64,000 nt of DNA, from the NCBI GenBank assembly GCA_029258925.1, contig JAPDJV010000014.1, positions 1 to 64,000 of the forward strand. Reading direction: 5' to 3'. This DNA comes from Thermoproteota archaeon (GTDB taxonomy: Archaea; Thermoproteota; Thermoprotei_A; EX4484-217-1; JAPDJV01). This document shows positions 457-63,066 of the stretch, in pieces; the stretch's first letter is position 1; every line of letters begins with the position of its first letter. Under the pieces are notes generated by a model that was not told the DNA's origin, ran no database searches, and saw only the letters and a list, made by a program, of their open reading frames with translations. The translations under genes were made by a program, and so were the position numbers.

Positions 457-891
457 ATGTGCCTAAATACACGGAGAGGAATCAGCGAGGTTATATCCTC
501 TCTACTACTGTTCGTAATAGCCTTAGCGGTCCTAGTTATTATTGCTACTAGCATATACGGTTACTATACTAGCGCTATCAGCTACGTTCCCCTATTCTTC
601 CACGAGAGCAAGCTCTCGATGCTGGAAAAACTGAAAGTTGTTTACGGATTTTATAAAGATGGCACCGTAGTGCTCGTAATATATAATTATGGAGATATAC
701 ACACTGAGATCTCGTACATAGTAGTCGATCAAAAAGTGTATTTGGCTACAGACTTCATAACCGATACTGAAGTTAAGGCGGGTGAAATAAAAGTTATTCA
801 ATTCGAGCTGACATTAGATCAAGGCATTCACGTTCTAGGGATTCAGGGGAGGAGGGGGTCGAAGAGCACAATATTAGTAAAGGTGCAGTGA
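457..891 (+). CDS. Type IV pilin-like protein with class III signal peptide
   Basis: The 144-residue protein opens with a short charged leader (two Arg then Gly at residues 6-8) followed by ISEVISS and a hydrophobic helix of about 20 residues. This is the class III signal peptide cut by PibD/EppA-type prepilin peptidases, here after Gly8. The rest is beta-rich, as in archaeal pilin and archaellin head domains. It is the first gene of a pilus-like locus and is followed one base later by a second pilin. A G-rich ribosome site (GGGG) precedes the ATG. The precise filament type (adhesion pilus, sugar-binding or other) cannot be deduced. Confidence 0.8.
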   Translation: MCLNTRRGISEVISSLLLFVIALAVLVIIATSIYGYYTSAISYVPLFFHESKLSMLEKLKVVYGFYKDGTVVLVIYNYGDIHTEISYIVVDQKVYLATDFITDTEVKAGEIKVIQFELTLDQGIHVLGIQGRRGSKSTILVKVQ

Positions 892-892
892 G

Positions 893-1321
893 ATGTCTAG
901 AAGAAGAGGTTCTACTATAATAGCTTTATCCATAATAACCATAATCGCCTTTCTAATAATAGTCTCGATGGCCTCAATAATAATCTCCGGCATGAGCGAC
1001 CTCCTTAGAACACAGCTGAACGTGTTTGATGAAGAAACAGAGAGAATGAGGGAGAACATTGAAGTTGAAGCATTTAGCAGCGGGGGGAAAATAGGGTTAT
1101 GTATAAACAATACTGGTACTACAACTATTTTAATCACGTACGTTGTAGTTCACGACGTCTCCTCAGATGATATATCAATTTATAATGTAATGTGGGCTCT
1201 AGATACGGGAGAAGACCTTACTGAAATCTTAGAGCATGAATACCCCTCACCCGGCTCAATGGTGAAATGTGTTTTGGTTTCAAGCAGGGGGAATACGTGG
1301 CAAATAACTATTAAGGGTTGA
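893..1321 (+). CDS. Second type IV pilin-like protein
   Basis: This 142-residue protein begins with three Arg and a Gly (residues 3-6) followed by a hydrophobic segment STIIALSIITIIAF, so it has a class III signal peptide cleavable after Gly6. The remainder is predicted to be an extracellular beta domain and shows two cysteines. Its ATG follows the TGA of the upstream pilin by one base and uses a GGTG ribosome site lying inside that gene, so the two are probably translationally coupled. It runs into the secretion ATPase with a four-base gap. It is a minor or major pilin subunit; which one is not visible. Confidence 0.75.
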   Translation: MSRRRGSTIIALSIITIIAFLIIVSMASIIISGMSDLLRTQLNVFDEETERMRENIEVEAFSSGGKIGLCINNTGTTTILITYVVVHDVSSDDISIYNVMWALDTGEDLTEILEHEYPSPGSMVKCVLVSSRGNTWQITIKG

Positions 1322-1325
1322 GACG

Positions 1326-4019
1326 ATGTTCAAATGGTTTAGGAGGGAGAGGAGGCTTAAAGAGGAAACCTTTAAGGTAATTAGGTTAAGTGCGGAGAAG
1401 TATTCAGATATTTTAACTAAAGGCGTAATGCTCGAAGAATACTTTGTAGGACCGTGCAAGGTTAGCATGGCTGAGTATGAGGGCAGGGGATATTATATTG
1501 TCGATGAGCCTCTCCTAACGGAGATAGAACAGAGCGCTTACGTCCAGGCAATGGAATCACTATATTTTGCAACTAAGCCAGAAGTTTTCGGCGAGAACTT
1601 GGAGAGCGTCGTTAACGAGGTAGTTAAGGTAATATTCAAGAGGTTGGAGGAGGAAGGATTTGAGAAAATTTCAATGGACAATGTCAGATACTATGTGATT
1701 AGAGACTCCTTAGGCTACGGCATACTTGACGTCTTAATAAGAGATCCGAGAATAGAGGACATAAGCGCTGAGGGTGTAGGTAAACCTGTTAGAGTATTCC
1801 ATAGAGATTACAGTGACTATGATTGGCTCATCACGAATATTAAGTTTGAGAAAGAAGAGGACCTAGACAACATCGTGCTTCTCATAGCACATAAATCTAA
1901 GAAACATATTTCAACAGCCTTTCCGATAGCCGAGGGAGCACTACCCGAGAAACATAGGGCATCGATGACTTTCAGCTGCGAAGTAACTCCGTTTGGATCA
2001 AGCTTTACTATAAGAAAGTTTAGAACAGAGCCTCTAACAATAGTTCACTTAATAAAGTACGGAACAATCTCCCCCTTAATGGCTGCATACTGGTGGCTAA
2101 TACTCGAAAACAAGGGATCGCTATTCATAGTTGGTGAGATGGCGAGCGGCAAGACAACGCTCATGAACGCCCTCCTACAACTTTTACCACCGAACTGGAA
2201 AATAGTGTGCGTAAGTCCTCGGATGAACCTGATCGTGAATGGTAAAGTCGTGAACATAGAGGATTCGTTTAACACTTTGCTAAAAACCAGGTCTCCCAAA
2301 AACGAAGGCAACACAATAAGTATAGGTGGAAGCGAAGAAACCGTATGTTTTAAAGACAACATTGTTGCAAGAGGCAACATATCTGCTTGGCAGAAAATAT
2401 TCGTTCCAGATGGAACAAGCATTGTGAGAATCATAACCGAGAGCGGGGTTCTAGTAGAAGTTACAGAAAACACTAGAATACCCGTATTAAGCAATGGTGA
2501 AGTAGAATACAAGTACTCCTCTCAGCTAGCAGTTGGAGACCTGGTTCCAGTTCTCTCATCAATACCGTCTCCCCAGTCTTCAAGTCTCCCGATCCCAAGC
2601 CACGTGTATGAGAGGCTTGGATGCAAACCTTGCGATGTAGATGGATGGCTAATTACTAGAGGAGGAAGTTATGTTAGGAAAAAGGAGGCAATGGATAACA
2701 ATATGTACTATTTAATGGGATTTATCTTAGGGAAGGGAGAGTTAAAGAGGAGCAATGTACAAGTAGAGGTTAAAGATAGGAATCTAGCGATAACAGTACT
2801 AGCAAAATTCTCATCACTAGTAAACCCCGTCTCGATGGAAGAGGAGGAGGGAAAAATAACGATAAAAATCAGCCATGGTGCAGGAACGTTCATAAAAACA
2901 TTACTATGTGACAAGAAAACTCTCACCGAAGCCCTGAGGACGGCGGGGGTAATTGAAGTATCAAATTTCGTAGCAGGTCTTCTGGACGCATTAATGGATG
3001 ACGGCAAACTAAAGAGACGCCTAGAAATAGAGATGCCAGTGGACGAAAGCGAGGCACTTGCAGAGGCTTTGTTGAAGATAGGTGTTAAGCCAGTAATTCG
3101 TAGGAGAGAACTCGGCTACGAGAAAGAGGGTATAATGATTGATGAAAGAGACTTTGTTAAACTTGTTAGAACTGCAAAGCATTACGTGGAAAAAAGGAGG
3201 AAGTCGCAGAGCACTAGGAATACAAGTATTAAATGGGAGACGGTTGCATTTATAGAGAAATTAAGCTCGAGTGGAGTAGTCTATGACATTACACCCTCTG
3301 AAAGCAGATATTATTTTGCTGGTAGAGGAGGATTCATAGCAGTAGAGGATACTATTGAGGATACTCCAGAACTAAGGCTTCCCCACGTTGGTTGGAAGCC
3401 TTTAGTAGCCCGTCACGCAATAACAATAGGTGAAGCTATAACTGAAATAGATTTATTCGATCTAGTAAGGCTTTCCCTGAGAGAGAGGGCACAGTTCATA
3501 GTCGTGGGAGAGATCAGAGGAGAAGAAGCATATGTTTTCATACAAAGCTTAGCCGCTGGCCATGGAGGTATGTGCACCTTCCACGGCGACTCTCTCGAGT
3601 CAATGGTTATGAGACTCACTACTCCCCCCATAAACGTGCCCCTATCCTTCCTTCCACTAATAAGTAATGTCGTGATAATGAGGTATGTGAGACTGCCGCG
3701 TAGAAAACCCATGAGAAGAGTCCAAGTGGTTGAAGAGGTAAGTGGAGTAAGAGGAAATGAGCTCGACCACAAGGCTATTTTTAAGTGGATAGTTGAGAGA
3801 GACGAGTTTACACCAAAAAGTATTGAGACTATTGTAAAGGAGAGTGTGAAGCTAAAGAAAGTACGGACACTCCTAGGATGGGACGAGGAAACTCTAATTA
3901 GAGATTTAGAGGAGAGGAAGAGGTTTCTTGAGGATTTAGCGAGGAGAGACATAGCAGTGTATACTGATGTTGTAAGAGAAGTTAGGAGATTTTATTCTAA
4001 GAGGATGAGGGGAGAGTAA
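1326..4019 (+). CDS. Type II/IV secretion system ATPase (GspE/TadA/PilB family) interrupted by an intein
   Basis: The host protein is the hexameric ATPase that drives pilus assembly. The Walker A loop GEMASGKTT is at residues 270-278. The Asp box TIEDTPEL begins at residue 676, followed by GEIRGEEA (Walker B) and a His box GHGGMCTFHGDS. Between Walker A and the Asp box a 381-residue insertion (295-675) has intein features and is entered separately. Without it the host is about 516 residues, normal for archaeal GspE-like ATPases. The paralogue at 61384-62992 has no insertion at the same site. The gene lies between the pilins and the TadC-like membrane protein, whose TTG start follows its stop codon directly. 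Confidence 0.9.
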   Translation: MFKWFRRERRLKEETFKVIRLSAEKYSDILTKGVMLEEYFVGPCKVSMAEYEGRGYYIVDEPLLTEIEQSAYVQAMESLYFATKPEVFGENLESVVNEVVKVIFKRLEEEGFEKISMDNVRYYVIRDSLGYGILDVLIRDPRIEDISAEGVGKPVRVFHRDYSDYDWLITNIKFEKEEDLDNIVLLIAHKSKKHISTAFPIAEGALPEKHRASMTFSCEVTPFGSSFTIRKFRTEPLTIVHLIKYGTISPLMAAYWWLILENKGSLFIVGEMASGKTTLMNALLQLLPPNWKIVCVSPRMNLIVNGKVVNIEDSFNTLLKTRSPKNEGNTISIGGSEETVCFKDNIVARGNISAWQKIFVPDGTSIVRIITESGVLVEVTENTRIPVLSNGEVEYKYSSQLAVGDLVPVLSSIPSPQSSSLPIPSHVYERLGCKPCDVDGWLITRGGSYVRKKEAMDNNMYYLMGFILGKGELKRSNVQVEVKDRNLAITVLAKFSSLVNPVSMEEEEGKITIKISHGAGTFIKTLLCDKKTLTEALRTAGVIEVSNFVAGLLDALMDDGKLKRRLEIEMPVDESEALAEALLKIGVKPVIRRRELGYEKEGIMIDERDFVKLVRTAKHYVEKRRKSQSTRNTSIKWETVAFIEKLSSSGVVYDITPSESRYYFAGRGGFIAVEDTIEDTPELRLPHVGWKPLVARHAITIGEAITEIDLFDLVRLSLRERAQFIVVGEIRGEEAYVFIQSLAAGHGGMCTFHGDSLESMVMRLTTPPINVPLSFLPLISNVVIMRYVRLPRRKPMRRVQVVEEVSGVRGNELDHKAIFKWIVERDEFTPKSIETIVKESVKLKKVRTLLGWDEETLIRDLEERKRFLEDLARRDIAVYTDVVREVRRFYSKRMRGE
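2208..3350 (+). other. Intein in the pilus ATPase, with degenerate splice and endonuclease motifs
   Basis: The insertion starts with Cys295, sits between KIV and TIEDTPEL of the host and is followed by Thr676 as the +1 residue. The block A-like start CVSPRMNLIVNGK and the block F-like VVYDITPSESRYYFAG identify it as an intein. Block B reads VTENTRIPVL, with Thr383 where the conserved His is expected. The C-terminus is IAVED instead of the usual HN ending, so Asp replaces Asn and Glu replaces His. Two LAGLIDADG-like helices are visible (MGFILGKGE near residues 464-472; AGLLDALMDDG near 550-560), but the first lacks the catalytic Asp. The boundaries are well supported; splicing and homing activity are doubtful. 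Confidence 0.85.
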
Positions 4020-5927
4020 TTGGCTAAAGGCGGAGATAGAAGCTTTATCCTTTTCATAATATCAATGACTGTTCTAGCTTCGATTCAAACAGCGTTCTTA
4101 ATGACAACAACTGATCCAACATACAAGCTTCTATCCACAGTAATATTTTTCGTAGTTATTACAGGACTCGCGGCGATTTCTGCGCTCTGGAGTGTAGTGT
4201 ACAAGCAAATAGTAGATAGAATTAGATTAGCCTATCCTAAGAGATTGCCTGAGAGAGTAGTTGACCCATACACAGAGATGGGCTTATGGGTGTTTGTTAG
4301 AAAGATTCCAATAATAAATGAGATTACGGTTAGATTCTCGGAGCGACTTAAAAAGCATATGATTAAATCCGGCTATTACGCTAATCCCCTATACTATTCT
4401 TCATTCTACATGCTACTCTCTATAGCACTAACACCACTAACGTTGATAGGCATCGTGGGCCTTCTACAAGGCAATGTTTTTTACACGCTCCTATTATTAG
4501 TCCCACTAATACCCTTATTCTTCCCCTTCATCGAGCTAGGTGTTAGAAGAGTAAATAGATCTAGCGATGTTGAGAGTGAACTACCGTATTTTATGATCTA
4601 CGCTAGTCTTCTACATAGAGCTGGTATAAGTCTGTTCGACGCCTTTATGAAACTCATAGGAACAAAGGAAATATTCAGTGTAATGGAGAGAGAGGCGAGA
4701 ATTATAAGAAGAGAATACGCGTTCTACAGTCATAGTCCGATACGTTCACTCGAGAAATACGCATTTAATCATCCTAATGAAGATCTTAAGGGCATAGTAC
4801 TAGGCTATACGAGCGTCCTTAGAAGCGGGGGAGACACAGGTGCCTTTCTAGAAAGGAAGGCTTCAGAGCAATTGGAAAGGCTAAAGATGAAGTGGAAGAA
4901 CTTTGTGAAGACTGTTATGATTTACGGAGATATGGCGATTCTGGTCACCATGATGGTGCCCTCGATAATCATACTCGGTTCACTAATATTCGCTCAGAGC
5001 GTTAGCTTCAATATCCTAGTACTTTACGGAGTTTTAGGTCTGCCATTCTTTACAGTGGTGTTTATAGGAATATTCAATGCCTCTCAACCTAAAATGAAGA
5101 ACATATTTTCAGTTAAAAAGCCCCTTCTATACTTCATACCGACTCTAATGCTGGCAACCCCTATAGTTATACTCTATGGAGTGAGCTGGGAGCTTATACC
5201 TGGAGTAATCTGCATAATTTCACTATTGCCCGTAGCTATAGCATTCCACATCCAATACATGGAAATAATGGCAATAGAACGCGCATTGCCCGCATTTATG
5301 AGGGATTTAACGGAGTTTGTGAAAATAGGATACGATATAGTGAAAGCCATTGTAGTACTTCCGTCGAGAAGAAAGTATAATAGGATTTTTGATGCTATCC
5401 TGGCAAAAATATCCATACTGTTGAGACTAAATACTCCACTTCGTGTGATAAGTACAAGGCTGCTGACTAGAAGCTGGCTACTAAAGTACGTGTTATTTCT
5501 ATTGGATGAAGTTACGTCTACTGGAGGTATAAGCCCAACTATTCTCGAATACTTTACGGAAATGCTAACCGAAAACATTAGAGTAAAGAGAGAGGCCAGA
5601 GGCCAGCTTAGAGTATACGTAATAATTCTGTTAATGGCTCCAGTGCTCCTAGGAGCATTGCTAGCAATGACCTCATACATGATTCAACCATTCGCGGAAA
5701 TTATTGAGGGCCCAACATTTTATCCTATACAAAAAGAAGTTCTAGAGGTCACAATGAAATTCTCTAAACTCGTGATCGTTGAAACTGGCATGATGGTAGG
5801 ATTGATAATAGCGAAAGTATATGATCAAACGATATTCAGTCTAAGGTGGGTGATTATAGGGGCTATCATAGGTTTATTATCCATCACCGTCGTACCTACC
5901 GTAATGGAAATGTTCATAACTTTCTAA
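4020..5927 (+). CDS. TadC-like membrane protein of the type IV pilus/type II secretion F family
   Basis: This 635-residue polytopic membrane protein has two similar halves, each with a cytoplasmic helical bundle (around 190-290 and 420-530) flanked by paired hydrophobic segments. That is the layout of archaeal T2SSF/TadC/FlaJ proteins, which form the membrane platform above the assembly ATPase. The start is TTG at 4020, immediately after the TAA of the ATPase, with GGGGAG just upstream, so the two genes are coupled. No other initiation codon fits as well. It completes pilus-like locus A; the gene order matches locus B at 59735-63561. Confidence 0.85.
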   Translation: MAKGGDRSFILFIISMTVLASIQTAFLMTTTDPTYKLLSTVIFFVVITGLAAISALWSVVYKQIVDRIRLAYPKRLPERVVDPYTEMGLWVFVRKIPIINEITVRFSERLKKHMIKSGYYANPLYYSSFYMLLSIALTPLTLIGIVGLLQGNVFYTLLLLVPLIPLFFPFIELGVRRVNRSSDVESELPYFMIYASLLHRAGISLFDAFMKLIGTKEIFSVMEREARIIRREYAFYSHSPIRSLEKYAFNHPNEDLKGIVLGYTSVLRSGGDTGAFLERKASEQLERLKMKWKNFVKTVMIYGDMAILVTMMVPSIIILGSLIFAQSVSFNILVLYGVLGLPFFTVVFIGIFNASQPKMKNIFSVKKPLLYFIPTLMLATPIVILYGVSWELIPGVICIISLLPVAIAFHIQYMEIMAIERALPAFMRDLTEFVKIGYDIVKAIVVLPSRRKYNRIFDAILAKISILLRLNTPLRVISTRLLTRSWLLKYVLFLLDEVTSTGGISPTILEYFTEMLTENIRVKREARGQLRVYVIILLMAPVLLGALLAMTSYMIQPFAEIIEGPTFYPIQKEVLEVTMKFSKLVIVETGMMVGLIIAKVYDQTIFSLRWVIIGAIIGLLSITVVPTVMEMFITF

Positions 5928-14250: not shown

Positions 14251-15771
14251 TTACTCCATGGAATCCCTTATGCCTTCATCCGTTATCATAAACACTGTCT
14301 CCCCCTCAGGTAGATGAGGAGCGTCGACGATCCTAGCTATCCTCTTACCTCCTCTGCTTTTCCTCAACTGAACTCTTACACCTGGAGCATGATACAATAT
14401 GTGCCCTCCTACAGCCTGTGTGGGATCTCCATAAAATACGTCGGGTCTGGCCATAACTTGATTCGTCACCACAACTGCGATGTTGAACATTTCAGCCAGC
14501 CTCAACAGTTGGTGCAAGTGCTGGTTTAGTTTCTGTTGTCTTGCAGCCAAATTTTCTCTTCCAACATATTCCGCTCTAAAGTGGCCTGTAACAGAGTCAA
14601 CTACGACTAATTTTATGTTCTCTTTCTTAGCCAAGTCGAAGAGTTCTTCCACAACAGCCATTTGATGATCGCTATTAACGGCTCTAATATAGAATATATT
14701 TGACATTACAGTGTCGGGGTCTAGACCCAAACCTCTGGCCATAGCCTCTATTCTCTCCCACCTAAATGTACCCTCTGCATCAATGTACGCTGCTTTTGCC
14801 TGGAGGCCTCCCCTATCGGGTGGTAGCTGCACGTTCACTGAAAGCTGATGACATATTTGAGTATTGTGAAGTATTAGACCGTTTGCTGATACGAAGTTTT
14901 GTGTTGAGGGAACAACTAGGTCATACACGTAATCATTGTAGTCCAGCAATTTGACAGACTTGATCGTATGAAGACTTAGCTTTCTAGGAATGTAACCGTG
15001 TTCTCCCACGGAAGACTCGTTTAAAGTGTTCTCATACAACTCTAAAACATTTGAGTCTGTCCATAAACCAACCACGATATCTCCAACAGAGAGTTCAGCA
15101 GTCTTAGTCCAGCTAAGCTTTTTTCCATCGAATATTAGAAATGGGTGTGTTGGAGTTACTCTCACAATCTTTCCGTCATCAGTTACGATTTCAACAACCT
15201 TTTCAGCCCATTCCCTGTAAATGTGTGTTGCACGTGTAACTATCAGGCCTCCATCACTATTTAGAGCTAAGACCTCTATTGGCCTCTGTAAATCAATTAT
15301 AAGTCCATTATCAAATGATCTTCCTCTATAGCGGGAATAGTATTTATCAAACATTTCCTCTATACACTCGACGTGTGGAATGTCGTCATTGAAATATAAT
15401 ATCTGCGTGTCTCCCGAGAAACACTTCCCCGTCCCAAACTCTCCGAAGAACTCTGTTATAGTTTTGGTTTCAACACCCCCTCCCAAGAGGGCGTCAAGAT
15501 TTCTACTCCCAGTAGTAATTTTCTTGATTGCAGCTCTCTCCATCTTTAATTCTAGAGCAGTCTTAAACCTTATGTCAAGAGCTTCTCTTGCAGCACTAAT
15601 TATTCTCTTTGCGGTGCTCAAAGGTATTCCAATGGTTTTACTTAAAACTGTGGGTGAAGCTACTGCCAGTGCTTCAAGTGTCCCGTAACCTGCTTCAACT
15701 AGTTTTGCGGCAGTGCTTTCACCTACACCTGGTAGATCGGTAAGGGATGTAATCTTCTTTTTCGTAATAAT
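14251..15771 (-). CDS. radA: RadA recombinase with a mini-intein and an apparent ATT start codon
   Basis: RadA forms the archaeal recombination filament. The host shows an N-terminal helix-hairpin-helix domain ([19 protein letters not shown]), Walker A GEFGTGK, Walker [10 protein letters not shown] and loop motifs ([23 protein letters not shown]). An intein interrupts it after the Walker A lysine. With the intein the gene encodes 506 residues, without it about 319, a normal RadA. The conserved N-terminal domain runs in frame back to a TAA at 15772-15774, with no ATG, GTG or TTG until 15621. Initiation is therefore most likely at ATT 15771 or 15768, just after GGGGGA. Confidence 0.9.
14863..15423 (-). 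other. RadA mini-intein (187 residues)
   Basis: The element runs from Cys ([14 protein letters not shown]) to Asn (GLILHN), followed by Thr as the +1 residue. It sits between the Walker A Gly-Lys and Thr. Block A, block B ([10 protein letters not shown] with the conserved His), block F ([18 protein letters not shown]) and block G (LHN) are all canonical, so splicing is expected. No homing endonuclease domain is present. The sequence pattern, including [11 protein letters not shown] and [14 protein letters not shown], strongly resembles the RadA mini-intein I know from Pyrococcus, inserted at the same site. Confidence 0.95.
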
Positions 15772-54410: not shown

Positions 54411-55022
54411 ATGATGGAACAACTTTACACAATGAAGGAGGCATCGAAGCTGTTAGGTGTCCATATTAGGACGATCCAGAAGTGGGATAGAGAGGGTAAG
54501 ATTAGGTGTGTCAGAACTATTGGTGGGAAGCGTAGAGTTCCCGAATCAGAAATAAAGAGGATTTTAGGGATTCACGAGGAAAGGAAGATAGTGGGTTATG
54601 CAAGAGTATCATCACGCACTCAAAAGGACGATTTAGATAGACAAGTTGAACTCATCAAGAAATATGCTAAAGAGAGAGGCTGGGAGATAGAAATTCTCAT
54701 AGACATAGGTTCAGGACTAAAGGAGGATAGAAGAAACTTCCAGAAGCTACTAAGGATGGTTATGAACAGGGAAGTTTCTAAGGTCATTATAGCGTATCCA
54801 GACAGACTAACGAGGTTTGGATTCAAGATTTTAAATGAATTCTTCAGGAGCTACGGAGCGGAGATAGTAGTTATAAATAAAGAAGAAAAGACACCACAAG
54901 AAGAGTTAATCGAAGATTTAATCACAATAATTTCCCATTTCGCTGGAAAACTCTACGGGATGAGGAGTCATAAGTATAAGAAGGTGGTGGAAGGTGCAAA
55001 GAAGCTCATACAGGATTGTTAG
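54411..55022 (+). CDS. tnpA: IS607 transposase, serine recombinase with MerR-like N-terminal domain
   Basis: The 203-residue protein has an N-terminal MerR-like helix-turn-helix ([25 protein letters not shown]) and a serine recombinase catalytic domain beginning [18 protein letters not shown] with Ser67/68, then [16 protein letters not shown] and [23 protein letters not shown]. This domain order, with the DNA-binding domain first, is specific to IS607-type transposases. The start is ATG 54411 or 54414. The end overlaps tnpB by 29 bases. All catalytic features seem intact. Confidence 0.92.
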
Positions 55023-56337
55023 CTATAAAATAAGACACGACTACAATGTTGGAGAGTTCTTAAACAGCTACAAGCACCTTCTCCAGAAGGCAATAGACGA
55101 CATCTGGGATAATATGGAGTGGGTTGAAAAGAAGCAGAGAAACTATTACGTGATTAAACGTGGAAAGAGGAAAATAAGGAAACACTATTATGTCAAGAGA
55201 TTGATTCCAATAATTCCGAAATCCAGGGAATTCAAGAGAGCTTTAAGAAGTCAACTACTCGAAGACTGGAACTACGCATCTCACTACGTTGATTCAGCGA
55301 TAAAAACTGCTTATTCGATATTAAACTCGTGGAGGAGAAATTACATCAAGGGGAAGAGAGGAAGAAACAAACCTGTAGTAAAGAGGAAGTTCGTCAGAGT
55401 AAAAGAAACGCTTTACAGATTTAGAGATGGGAAAATAACTATTACAATAAAACCTCGTCAGTTCTATCTTGAGTTTGACCTCTCAAAAGCTTGGTTTAAG
55501 AATAGGATCAAAGGTTGTGATTTAGGAGAGTTAATCCTTAAGGAGAGTGAGTTGATTATAACGTTCAGGAAACCGCTAGGAGAGGAAAAGGTATCTGAGT
55601 GTATAGGTTGGGACTTGAACCTATTTAGTATGGATGGATTCTCTCCGAGGTATGGCTGGATTAGAGTAGACCTCAGATATCTTTACCACATACATAGGGT
55701 ACATGAGGTCAAGAGAAGGAGAGTGCAAAGCAAAGCTTCGAAGAAGAGCTCATTGAAAACCATAGTCTCAAAACATGGAGAGAGGGAGAAGAACAGGGCA
55801 AGAGATTACATCCATAAATTAACAACTCAATTGTCTAAGATGTTCCCGAATGCTGTACATGGCTTTGAGGATTTGGACAAACAAGGGATGCGTAACAGGA
55901 GTAAGAAGCATAACAGGGATGTTGCCAAGCAAAACTGGAAACAAATAATTCAATATATGAGTTATAAATCTAGAGTAAAGCTTGTCGATCCAAAGAACAC
56001 GAGTTCTACCTGCCCTGCATGTGGAGGAAGGATGATGAAGCTCCGAGGGGGGCAGGTAGTTAGATGTGAGAAGTGCGGTTTAACTTTAGACAGACAATTA
56101 TGCGGAGCGATAAACATCTACCTTAAGATGTGTGGTTTCCCTCCCTCTCCAAGCACCTTCTACCGTGTGGTGATTAGAAAGATGATCCCTCAGTGGAAGG
56201 TGCGGATGAGGGGAGGGAGAGGGGTTACCACGAATGGGGGCAAGGACGATGACATGCCCCCAATGAACCCAAGAGGAGGACCAAACCTGATGAACCCCCA
56301 AGGCTTACATAGGCTTACCAAAGCCTATGTAAGCTGA
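54994..56337 (+). CDS. tnpB: TnpB, RNA-guided RuvC-like nuclease
   Basis: TnpB proteins are RNA-guided DNA nucleases encoded in IS200/IS605 and IS607 elements. The 447-residue protein keeps the RuvC residues: Asp207 ([10 protein letters not shown]), Glu292 ([11 protein letters not shown]) and Asp366 ([13 protein letters not shown]). A zinc ribbon uses Cys340, Cys343, Cys358 and Cys361 (TCPACGG and CEKCG). The C-terminal tail is rich in Gly, Pro and Asn and overlaps a structured RNA region. Start is GTG 54994, inside tnpA. The usual catalytic triad is complete, so it is probably active. Confidence 0.92.
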
Positions 56338-59734: not shown

Positions 59735-61387
59735 TTACATGAATGTTTTTATCATGCTTAAACACATGGAGTCGGATATCCAAATCAATAACATGCTCAA
59801 GATAGCGAAGAACACGGCATCAATAAGTCCATTCACTATTGATCCTCCTCTAGCTTTCCCCTCAAGTAAACCTAGAAGAATGGAGTTTATTGATGCCGAG
59901 AGGTAGGATGCGTCCTTTATAATTTTAGCCTGGCTCATCGTTGGGAATATTAGCGGTGCAAGACTGAATGTGTAAAAGTTAGCTAAATCGTGCATCCTAG
60001 AGAGCAGCATGATAACGGTGTTAACAGTATATGACACTGAAATTATCATTATAATGGCACATATTATACTAGTCAACCTATAACTACTAGCATACCTTAG
60101 CATAGATCTTATAGAGAAGGATATTCTCTCGAAAAACGATGCAAGGCAGTCTAAGGTTTTTGGATCAGCTCCCATATCTTCAGCTTCGTCGAGTAACTCG
60201 AAGAATACTTTCACTATCCAGGGCATTTTTTCGACTACAACTACCTGCTTCAACGAGAAGCCTAGAGCAGGGTAAACAGAAACCCTCTTAATTAGTTCTT
60301 GTAAGGGTTGGGGATAAACGTTGTTCAATGCAACATACCTCAGAGCTTGTGTAGGGGATTTACCCTTCTTAGTTTCTTCTGCTATGTCTCTAGCAAGGGA
60401 CGCAAGCCCTATTATCATAGAGTTTCTTCTCACTTCCTTAGAGTAATATATTATTGATGATGGAAGGAATCCTGCTAAAACCCCTACAGTGAGAGAGACG
60501 TAAGCTGGCATATTCATCATGAGGAGGAGGAGACTAGTGGGAAAAACTATTATAAACGATATCATTAAGAAACTGTAGTTCTCCTTGTCTTCAAGTTCTT
60601 TAGGTAGAGAGGCCTCTATTAAGAATACTATGCCTGCTGTCATTAATATTGGAATGGTTATGCATGAGGCTATTAATAGCTCTACACCTTGAGAGCTGAA
60701 CGTTGCCCCTATGCCAATTAAGCTTATTGGGACTAAGATAAAAGCTATTATTTCTATACTTGTAATGAAGCTAAATTGATCCGGAAGCCTTGAGATACGG
60801 GATTCCAGTGATGATAATAAGCTTGATGCCTTTTCATAAAGTACATTATAAACTTCACCTCCACTTCTCTCTATTGCCGCAACTGATGTTATGTAGTTTC
60901 TAACACTTTTAGATGGATGGTTTTTACCATAAAATATTAGTGCATCTATGGGACTCAAAGCATATAATGCTCTAATCTTCTCGACAATTCTGGCTTCTCT
61001 CGCAAATCTTTTTAGAGAATTGAAATATTTCAGTCTGCTGAAAGCGTAGGTTGGCGATATACCTACTGCTGAGGCCATGGCTAGAAATTCTGCAACAAAT
61101 GGGAGCTCCTTCTCGCACTCAGACACTCTCTTTCTTACAAGAAGTAATGGTATCATGAAGGCAACAATGAGAGGTGCGAATATTAAAGCTAGGGACAATG
61201 ATAGTAATATTGGGTTTTCGTTAAACATAAACAACGTAACTACTGTTCCCATAATGGATAAAAATATTAATATCTCTACTAGGGTGGTATAAGAGCGTAT
61301 GTTAATACTTGCATCCGCTTGGAAACAGTGCTTTCTTAATGTCCTTTCTATTTTCCTGTGAAAACTATTAGATCTCTTTTTAATCAT
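59735..61387 (-). CDS. TadC-like membrane protein of pilus locus B
   Basis: The 550-residue polytopic protein has two T2SSF-like halves, each with a helical cytoplasmic part (about 120-215; 330-440) and paired membrane helices. It resembles the protein at 4020-5927 in length and layout. The start overlaps the end of the ATPase gene by four bases. It is the membrane platform of locus B. The assignment rests on the fold pattern and the neighbours. Confidence 0.82.
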   Translation of the reverse strand: MIKKRSNSFHRKIERTLRKHCFQADASINIRSYTTLVEILIFLSIMGTVVTLFMFNENPILLSLSLALIFAPLIVAFMIPLLLVRKRVSECEKELPFVAEFLAMASAVGISPTYAFSRLKYFNSLKRFAREARIVEKIRALYALSPIDALIFYGKNHPSKSVRNYITSVAAIERSGGEVYNVLYEKASSLLSSLESRISRLPDQFSFITSIEIIAFILVPISLIGIGATFSSQGVELLIASCITIPILMTAGIVFLIEASLPKELEDKENYSFLMISFIIVFPTSLLLLMMNMPAYVSLTVGVLAGFLPSSIIYYSKEVRRNSMIIGLASLARDIAEETKKGKSPTQALRYVALNNVYPQPLQELIKRVSVYPALGFSLKQVVVVEKMPWIVKVFFELLDEAEDMGADPKTLDCLASFFERISFSIRSMLRYASSYRLTSIICAIIMIISVSYTVNTVIMLLSRMHDLANFYTFSLAPLIFPTMSQAKIIKDASYLSASINSILLGLLEGKARGGSIVNGLIDAVFFAILSMLLIWISDSMCLSMIKTFM

Positions 61388-62322
61388 AACTCCTCCTCAC
61401 CTATCAGAATGCTTTTAACCTCAACTTCGATCGGGCCGTTGACATCTACTTCGACTCTATCTAGACTAAATGACTTTGGATTCTCATAGAATTTCCAGAA
61501 AAGTCTCGTAACTTCTCTGTAATCTAGGAGGTCCTCGTGAAACTCTGCTTCCCTTTTCAGATACTTGAGGAACTTGGCTCTAAGTAGGATTTGCTGGACA
61601 AATTCTTCTTTTGTAATACCTGTTTCATCTATTATTCTCCTAGCTGTAGGAACATTAGCTAACTCGTTAAGCCTGCAATGAGCTATAATATCTTCTGAGG
61701 GATCATGTTTGAACAATCTGTAGAAGTACACGATGTTACTATCTACATCAACGTCGTAGACACCTGATATTCTTCTGAGGAAAACCTTTCTGGGAACACC
61801 TCTTTCGTCCTCCTTTATTAAAGGCATCCTCCTTAACATTACTATGCATTTAAGTCCTCTTAATGCTCCCTTCTCTACGTTAAGCGGCTCCGACAATAAT
61901 CTTTGAATACATGCTTCAGGAGATTCTGCATGAAAACTTGTAATACCCCCATGGCCACTTAGAAGCGCATTAGCCCATATCTTCGCCTCTTCTCCTCTAA
62001 CCTCCCCAATTACAATATAATCAGCAGACAGCCTAAGAGCATGCTTAACTAACTTGAATATTCCAATACTACCTCTCTCGTCGAGGGTTACAGGGTCTCT
62101 TGTAACAAGTGGTATCCAGTAGGGGTGAGCCAATTTTAGTTCTGCCGTGTCTTCAATAGTCACGATTGTTGCTCTCTCCGGTATCATATTTGCTAAAGCA
62201 TTTATCATTGAAGTTTTCCCGGTGCCCATAGTCCCTGCTACTAGTATTGCTTTCCTGTGTTCAATCAAAGTCATAAGCCATGCTGCAACTATGGGATCTA
62301 TAGTCTCTTTAAGCAGCATCAT
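61384..62322 (-). CDS. Pilus-type secretion ATPase, catalytic half of a frame-split gene
   Basis: This frame holds the Walker A VAGTMGTGKTSM, Asp box TIVTIEDTAEL, Walker B YIVIGEVRGEEA and His box GHGGITSFHAES of a GspE/TadA ATPase. The protein fragment starts at ATG 62322, but homologous sequence (IGHRGSSLTIRKFPERPWSIT) continues in frame upstream to about 62390, where the N-terminal part is in another frame. There is no intein at the TIVTIED site, unlike the paralogue of locus A. Either the gene is broken, or a frameshift is programmed, or the sequence has a two-base error. Confidence 0.8.
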   Translation of the reverse strand: MMLLKETIDPIVAAWLMTLIEHRKAILVAGTMGTGKTSMINALANMIPERATIVTIEDTAELKLAHPYWIPLVTRDPVTLDERGSIGIFKLVKHALRLSADYIVIGEVRGEEAKIWANALLSGHGGITSFHAESPEACIQRLLSEPLNVEKGALRGLKCIVMLRRMPLIKEDERGVPRKVFLRRISGVYDVDVDSNIVYFYRLFKHDPSEDIIAHCRLNELANVPTARRIIDETGITKEEFVQQILLRAKFLKYLKREAEFHEDLLDYREVTRLFWKFYENPKSFSLDRVEVDVNGPIEVEVKSILIGEEEL

Positions 62323-62374
62323 GGTGATACTCCATGGTCTTTCAGGGAACTTCCTAATAGTAAGGCTCGAACCC

Positions 62375-62992
62375 CTATGTCCGATCTCTCTTATAAGTTA
62401 CAGTTAGTCTGTGTCCTTCAGGAAGCCTTATTGACAGCATGGGTTGATACACACTTATACTCTTCCCACTTAAATGTACAAGTTTTTCAACAAGTTTATC
62501 TAATTCCTCATCCGTGAAAACTATGTTGGATACTAGGGGGCCATATATTGAATGCATTATCCTGGCAGGCGTGTCTGGTCCGGGGATTTGAATGTCTTCA
62601 ACATAAGGGTCTTTAATAGCTGGTTGAAGAGCGCTGTATCCGGAGATCTCCCTAGATAGAAGGTACACTATTCTATCGTCGCTTATCCCAGCACTTATCA
62701 GAATTCTCTGTAGACCGTTCTCTTTAGACGAGATCACATCAGGTATGGTGAATATAAGGTTTTCAGCTTCTCTTTCAGCTGCTTCCAGCTCATACTCTGT
62801 TATAGGCGGATCATGTACTAGATATCTTCCATCACTTGTTATGAAGATTGTCGCTAAATCTATTTTATACTCGTCTATAACTGTGCTTCTTGTTGTTCCA
62901 TTGAAACTCTTTAGATCAGCGTGAACTACTTTAACCTTTAATCTCCTACTCTTCTCCACCTTCTTTGATAAGCTTATTCTTCTAAATACCAT
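62375..62992 (-). CDS. Pilus-type secretion ATPase, N-terminal half of a frame-split gene
   Basis: The frame encodes the N-terminal domain of a GspE/TadA ATPase (ITEYELEAAEREAENLIF, DRIVYLLSREISGYSALQPAIKDPYVEDI, LSIRLPEGHRLTVTYK). It ends at a TAG after KRDRT, just past a GA repeat (62385-62390). The normal continuation REIGHRGSSLTIRKF is in another frame. The start may be ATG 62992, preceded by GTGAT, or the upstream ATG 63010. Together with 61384-62322 it makes one complete ATPase of about 540 residues. Confidence 0.8.
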   Translation of the reverse strand: MVFRRISLSKKVEKSRRLKVKVVHADLKSFNGTTRSTVIDEYKIDLATIFITSDGRYLVHDPPITEYELEAAEREAENLIFTIPDVISSKENGLQRILISAGISDDRIVYLLSREISGYSALQPAIKDPYVEDIQIPGPDTPARIMHSIYGPLVSNIVFTDEELDKLVEKLVHLSGKSISVYQPMLSIRLPEGHRLTVTYKRDRT

Positions 62993-63066
62993 GACTATCA
63001 CTTCAAACATTAATTTAAATAAAAAAGCATTTGTTTAACTAAATTAAAGTCAGCTTTCTAGCGCTC

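Follow-up and report, generated by a model that had tools for sequence, protein, structure and literature searches.

The histidine of block B has been called the most conserved residue of inteins. Inteins without it form a very small subset, e.g., CDC21-1 of Thermococcus kodakarensis, where lysine stands instead and a bulky leucine occupies position −1 (PMC4031507, PMC6333167); two such inteins were known in 2014, one of them a pseudogene (PMC4031507, PMC3196547). The function of this histidine is replaceable by bulky residues at −1 (PMC6333167), and the only omnipresent residues of class 1 inteins are Cys or Ser at position 1 and a terminal Asn, Gln, or Asp (PMC7664689). Asp-ended inteins, in the account given in PMC4031507 with reference to Amitai et al. 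2004, are held to splice via cyclization of the Asp.

An intein interrupting a pilus ATPase gene in a 64,000-nt stretch (hereinafter, the window) of contig JAPDJV010000014.1 from a Thermoproteota archaeon departs from the canon in several of these positions at once. It resembles the inteins of the MCM site [TS]AAGL/C (the slash marks the insertion point) in the absence of the block B His, in Cys1, in a bulky residue at −1 (Val vs. Leu), and in Thr+1, and its Lys63 falls into a column where many of them possess Lys or Arg. Unlike them, it resides in a T2SSE ATPase at KIV/T and ends with Asp, not Asn. The terminal Asp is shared with the Asp/Gln-ended inteins of Amitai et al. 2004, as far as cited in PMC4031507, the likeness resting on this end residue. 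The intein pseudogene Arth_1007 of Arthrobacter FB24 also lacks the block B His (replaced by Asn) but differs in being of the class 3 type, without the F:4 Cys and with 66 extein residues only, and was shown not to splice (PMC3196547). Inteins found elsewhere in pilus and archaellum ATPases belong to the same host family and occupy the sites ISC/, GK/T, MA/TGHGG, and GHGGM/; those read in this analysis all end with His-Asn or Ser-Asn, whereas the intein described here ends with Glu-Asp and shows low similarity to them. Judging from its sequence, its predicted fold, and the conservation of its host gene, it is probably an old and degenerate class 1 intein, still competent for splicing, with an inactive endonuclease.

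The interrupted pilus ATPase gene

The host gene (1326-4019, plus strand) is a single unbroken frame encoding a precursor of 897 aa, an archaellum/pilus-type ATPase of the FlaI/BasE/TadA type (T2SSE, type II/IV secretion) split by 381 residues. It is preceded by two small ORFs, probably pilin genes (457-891 and 893-1321, together 457-1321, plus strand), the second of which weakly matches an archaellin, and an intact gene for a TadC/FlaJ-like partner membrane protein (T2SSF; 4020-5927, plus strand) comes after it. Elsewhere in the window, adjoining serine recombinase-like and TnpB-like ORFs (54411-56337, plus strand) have, by eye, the look of an IS607-type element. The source genome comprises 1.75 Mb (98% complete); its kin include three genomes of the same order, the other relatives being related at the class level only. 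Reverse gyrase matches on its contigs C44, C40, and C23 (genome G000) represent at least two copies, some frames covering only a part of the model; these genes indicate a hyperthermophile from a hot habitat.

The intein (2208-3350, plus strand) spans 381 aa, Cys295 to Asp675 of the precursor, and sits in frame within a conserved motif, at KIV/TIEDT between Val294 and Thr676. The N-extein (1326-2207, plus strand; residues 1-294) harbors the intact Walker A motif GEMASGKT (2133-2156, plus strand) and ends with NWKIV, i.e., with a bulky Val at −1; the C-extein (3351-4016, plus strand) contains the intact Asp box TIEDTPEL, Walker B, and His box. The insertion breaks the strand KIV/TIED and places Walker A and the Asp box on opposite sides of the intein. 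Both exteins are continuous and co-linear with five orthologues (G152, G143, G121, G154, and G157) from other genera of the class, which are 57-65% identical over the exteins and uninterrupted at this site in all five cases. The joined exteins read NWKIV-TIEDTPELRLPH, the same sequence being present in G152 and G154, and the junction peptide of the spliced ATPase spans NWKIVTIEDTPELR.

These orthologues confirmed the ends given in the initial annotation, Cys295 to Asp675 followed by Thr676. The annotation had fixed them by means of an intein-free paralogue at locus B, on which they do not depend. Locus B (61384-63010, minus strand), also a pilus ATPase gene, carries a one-base frameshift at about 62375-62395 in AAGAGAGATC, either a sequencing error, a pseudogene, or a case of recoding.

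The Pfam Intein_splicing match to the insert is weak (E 2e-4, below the cut-off). The AlphaFold2 model, built from an input alignment of 31 other inteins, has a mean pLDDT of 81, and about 87-97 in most blocks of the splicing (HINT) domain, for which an intact fold is thus predicted. A Foldseek search with this model retrieved the intein structures 7qsu (E 1e-21), 7qss, and 2cw7, and the TliVMA, PhoVMA, and PI-PfuI inteins were among the matches. Judged by the Pfam match, the predicted model, and the Foldseek matches, the insert is an intein and not a chance resemblance.

Splicing residues and relatives of the intein

The set of residues is mixed (all features on the plus strand). The N-terminal nucleophile Cys1 (Cys295; 2208-2210) opens block A, CVSPRMN, in which Arg-Met replaces the usual D5-T6, and Thr676 is present at +1, as in class 1. 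Block B, V-T-E-N-T (2460-2474), keeps the B:7 Thr, and B:10 is Thr383 (2472-2474) instead of His, so Thr-Glu-Asn-Thr stands for the class 1 Thr-x-x-His, where the His is frequent but not universal. Block F, VVYDITPSESRYYFA (also read VYDITPSESRYYFAG; 3276-3320), retains Asp at F:4 (3285-3287, in VYDIT), one of the two residues, Asp or Cys, typical of class 1 there, and possesses Arg for His at F:13 (3306-3308). Block G with Thr+1 (FIAVED, 3333-3353) ends A-V-E-D/T: the penultimate His, again frequent but not universal at its place, is replaced by Glu674, and the terminal Asn by Asp675, which belongs to class 1 under the broad Asn/Gln/Asp definition, the canonical Asn being absent (PMC7664689). 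The E, D, and T of this end align to columns of H, N, and T that are at least 90% identical (32-row alignment A2). Two departures pointed out initially, the missing block B His in VTENT and the C-terminal VED in place of HN, were therefore borne out by the alignments. Assignment to class 3 was rejected by the F:4 Asp (no Cys of the W-C-T set) and the presence of Cys1, and assignment to class 2 (KlbA-type) by Cys1, not Ala1, at the first position.

The LAGLIDADG nuclease domain is visible in the model but is probably inactive. An active homing endonuclease has an acidic residue in both motifs; by alignment, motif 1 (2712-2738) reads GKG for GDG, and motif 2 (FVAGLLDALMDDG, 2967-3005) is a helix in the AlphaFold2 model.

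Immediately at the C-terminal junction, the sequence displays a 9-nt direct repeat, GAGGATACT, at 3345-3353 and 3357-3365 (span 3345-3365). The junction codons GAG GAT ACT (Glu-Asp and Thr+1) are the same as the Asp-box codons for E-D-T located 12 nt downstream. A single templated event could have given both His-to-Glu and Asn-to-Asp, a post hoc proposal carrying no statistical test.

Eleven inteins were found in the source genome: that of the ATPase, one each in RadA, RtcB, RFC, IF2, and V-ATPase A, two in MCM, and three in a paralogue of the pilus ATPase. All ten others end with Asn (eight HN, two SN), and nine of these ten possess the block B His, the exception being the first MCM intein (Asn). 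The RadA mini-intein lies in the window (14251-15621, minus strand) and is canonical, with 187 residues, Cys1, the block B His, and LHN/T. The paralogue (L034, contig C11:15000-26000 of G000) is 1635 aa long and carries its three inteins at three conserved sites.

Close relatives of the ATPase intein were found neither in the genome contigs and viral contigs nor in 60 relatives and 398 genomes of the phylum, and no relative keeping the same residues was encountered in the relatives and phylum genomes searched. No other intein compared has Thr at B:10 together with the Glu-Asp end, nor, consequently, these residues combined with Arg at F:13. Among 75 inteins, its splicing domain forms the longest end branch (3.6-3.8). 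In about 25 long-frame loci of other pilus ATPases among the matches listed, there were no inteins at the same site; all occupied other sites. In the ATPase orthologues of G143 (L033) and G121 (L037), an intein is located at Walker A, and G143 has one before TGHGG as well. Inteins have thus entered this one gene at sites that differ from lineage to lineage.

Block B at the MCM insertion site

A comparison for the missing histidine is offered by the MCM site [TS]AAGL/C, where B:10 is Thr in 31 and Asn in 5 of 36 distinct inteins, and His in none. This set was gathered by whole-genome searches and by scanning the DNA of about 85,000 species for a pattern, near-copies being removed to leave 36 (MCM-gene loci L036, L091, L092, L094, L096, L113, L120-L124, L131, and L150-L198), and it spans Thermoproteota, Asgard-type archaea, Halobacteria, Methanomassiliicoccales, and small-genome archaea. 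Asn is terminal in all 28 inteins with a readable end, Gln and Asp having been permitted in the end search of the pattern scan. The set probably corresponds to the group of CDC21-1 of T. kodakarensis, for which a Leu at −1 and the lack of the His are likewise described.

MCM, the replicative helicase, is essential. One MCM gene was found in the source genome; its first intein is inserted at TAAGL/C, 27 residues past the Walker A lysine, and has Asn at B:10. Since the host helicase is essential, and single-copy in the source genome, we infer that inteins at this site must splice. Absence of the block B His therefore does not mark an intein as dead, and the doubt about splicing that had been raised for want of this residue is not supported.

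Lys63 of the ATPase intein (2394-2396, plus strand) belongs to a column with Lys or Arg in 29 of the 36 MCM-site inteins and is a candidate compensating residue. A closer connection was considered: the best BLAST match of the ATPase intein is the MCM intein of the same genome (26%), and the profile of the MCM-site group scores it at 46.9 bits vs. 29.9 for the next family. In a control, however, several unrelated intein families also reached 40-96 bits with the MCM-site profile, and six-sequence versions of it yielded 31-38 bits only. Intein trees, with a very long branch for the ATPase intein, allow several placements (AU test p 0.36). The claim of descent from the MCM-site group was dropped, as unrelated inteins score as high and the trees do not group the two. 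The Thr at B:10 may have been inherited or may have arisen by convergence.

Splicing or loss of splicing

The state of the host gene bears directly on whether the intein can still be excised. All ATPase motifs are intact in the exteins as aligned to the orthologues. Where the other four full-length orthologues share a single residue, the ATPase has 31 private changes per 254 columns and G121 has 29 per 252. With the invariant columns of the other five orthologues as reference, the ATPase shows 15 private changes per 207 with a branch of 0.44, and G121, G152, G154, and G157 show 6 to 9 with branches of 0.14-0.28, a similar proportion to branch length. In the extein tree, the end branch of 0.44 compares with 0.36 plus 0.21-0.39, i.e., about 0.57-0.75, in the sister clade. 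The exteins evolve no faster than the orthologues and show no sign of relaxed selection. By a rough estimate (a Poisson limit, with neutral change assumed to be 3-10 times faster), a non-functional period longer than a few percent of the 0.44 branch would show. Since the exteins are conserved, any loss of splicing would have to be recent; if so, the divergence of the splicing domain would have accumulated mostly while it was splicing, or in a donor lineage before its arrival.

Continued splicing is favored because the host is conserved, the HINT fold is predicted, the essential class 1 residues are kept, and each main deviation has a natural precedent. The reaction would employ Cys1, the B:7 Thr, the F:4 Asp, the terminal Asp, and Thr+1. 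Without the block B His, the N-S acyl shift would proceed as at the MCM site, and its loss may be made up for by the bulky −1 residue Val and possibly by Lys63; in the C-terminal step, cyclization of Asp would replace that of Asn. The initial annotation had described Asp-ended inteins as known, in agreement with the accepted class 1 ends (PMC7664689, PMC4031507). Of its two proposals, an unusual splicing route is better supported than inactivity of the ATPase, given the His-less set at the MCM site, the conserved host, and the accepted Asp end; inactivity does not fit with a host showing no sign of relaxed selection, except in the form of a recent event. Against splicing stand the longest branch, a combination of residues without precedent in the set, and the lack of a relative showing selection on this combination.

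Such a recent event is unlikely, although it is the main rival of continued splicing. In this scenario, a templated copy of GAGGATACT from the Asp box swapped His-Asn for Glu-Asp and stopped or crippled splicing, leaving the ATPase inactive with no time yet to decay. The direct repeat exactly at the junction, the long intein branch, as decay would give, and the several changed positions conserved in other inteins are consistent with it, and the Arthrobacter pseudogene provides a precedent (PMC3196547). At the same time, the exteins and the partner gene are intact and without excess changes, which would leave only a very recent death of the intein; Asp is among the few residues still permitting splicing; and the Arthrobacter pseudogene, with its short extein remnants and no host protein, is unlike the ATPase.

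Even less probable is a conditional splicing or cleavage switch, in which class 1 splicing with Thr at B:10, Arg at F:13, penultimate Glu, and terminal Asp would be slow and triggered by heat, pH, or redox state, setting the level of active pilus motor. The loss of assisting residues along with retention of the nucleophiles would suit this function, as would the separation of Walker A from the Asp box, and conditional splicing is known for a hyperthermophile RadA (PMC5790916). Against this putative switch, the relatives and phylum genomes searched include no conserved relative that would show selection for it. A permanently retained insert, with the HINT domain domesticated and the precursor active as an ATPase in its unspliced form, is very improbable: the ends of HINT domains lie near each other, making a domain insertion conceivable, but the insertion breaks the strand KIV/TIED, and at the junction the residues match the intein-free orthologues exactly.

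The main deviations of the ATPase intein, each known singly, are combined in a host gene still under selection. This combination represents a natural test of the minimal conserved active site an intein needs. As a broader by-product, the MCM-site inteins make up a natural set for the study of how the block B His can be replaced.
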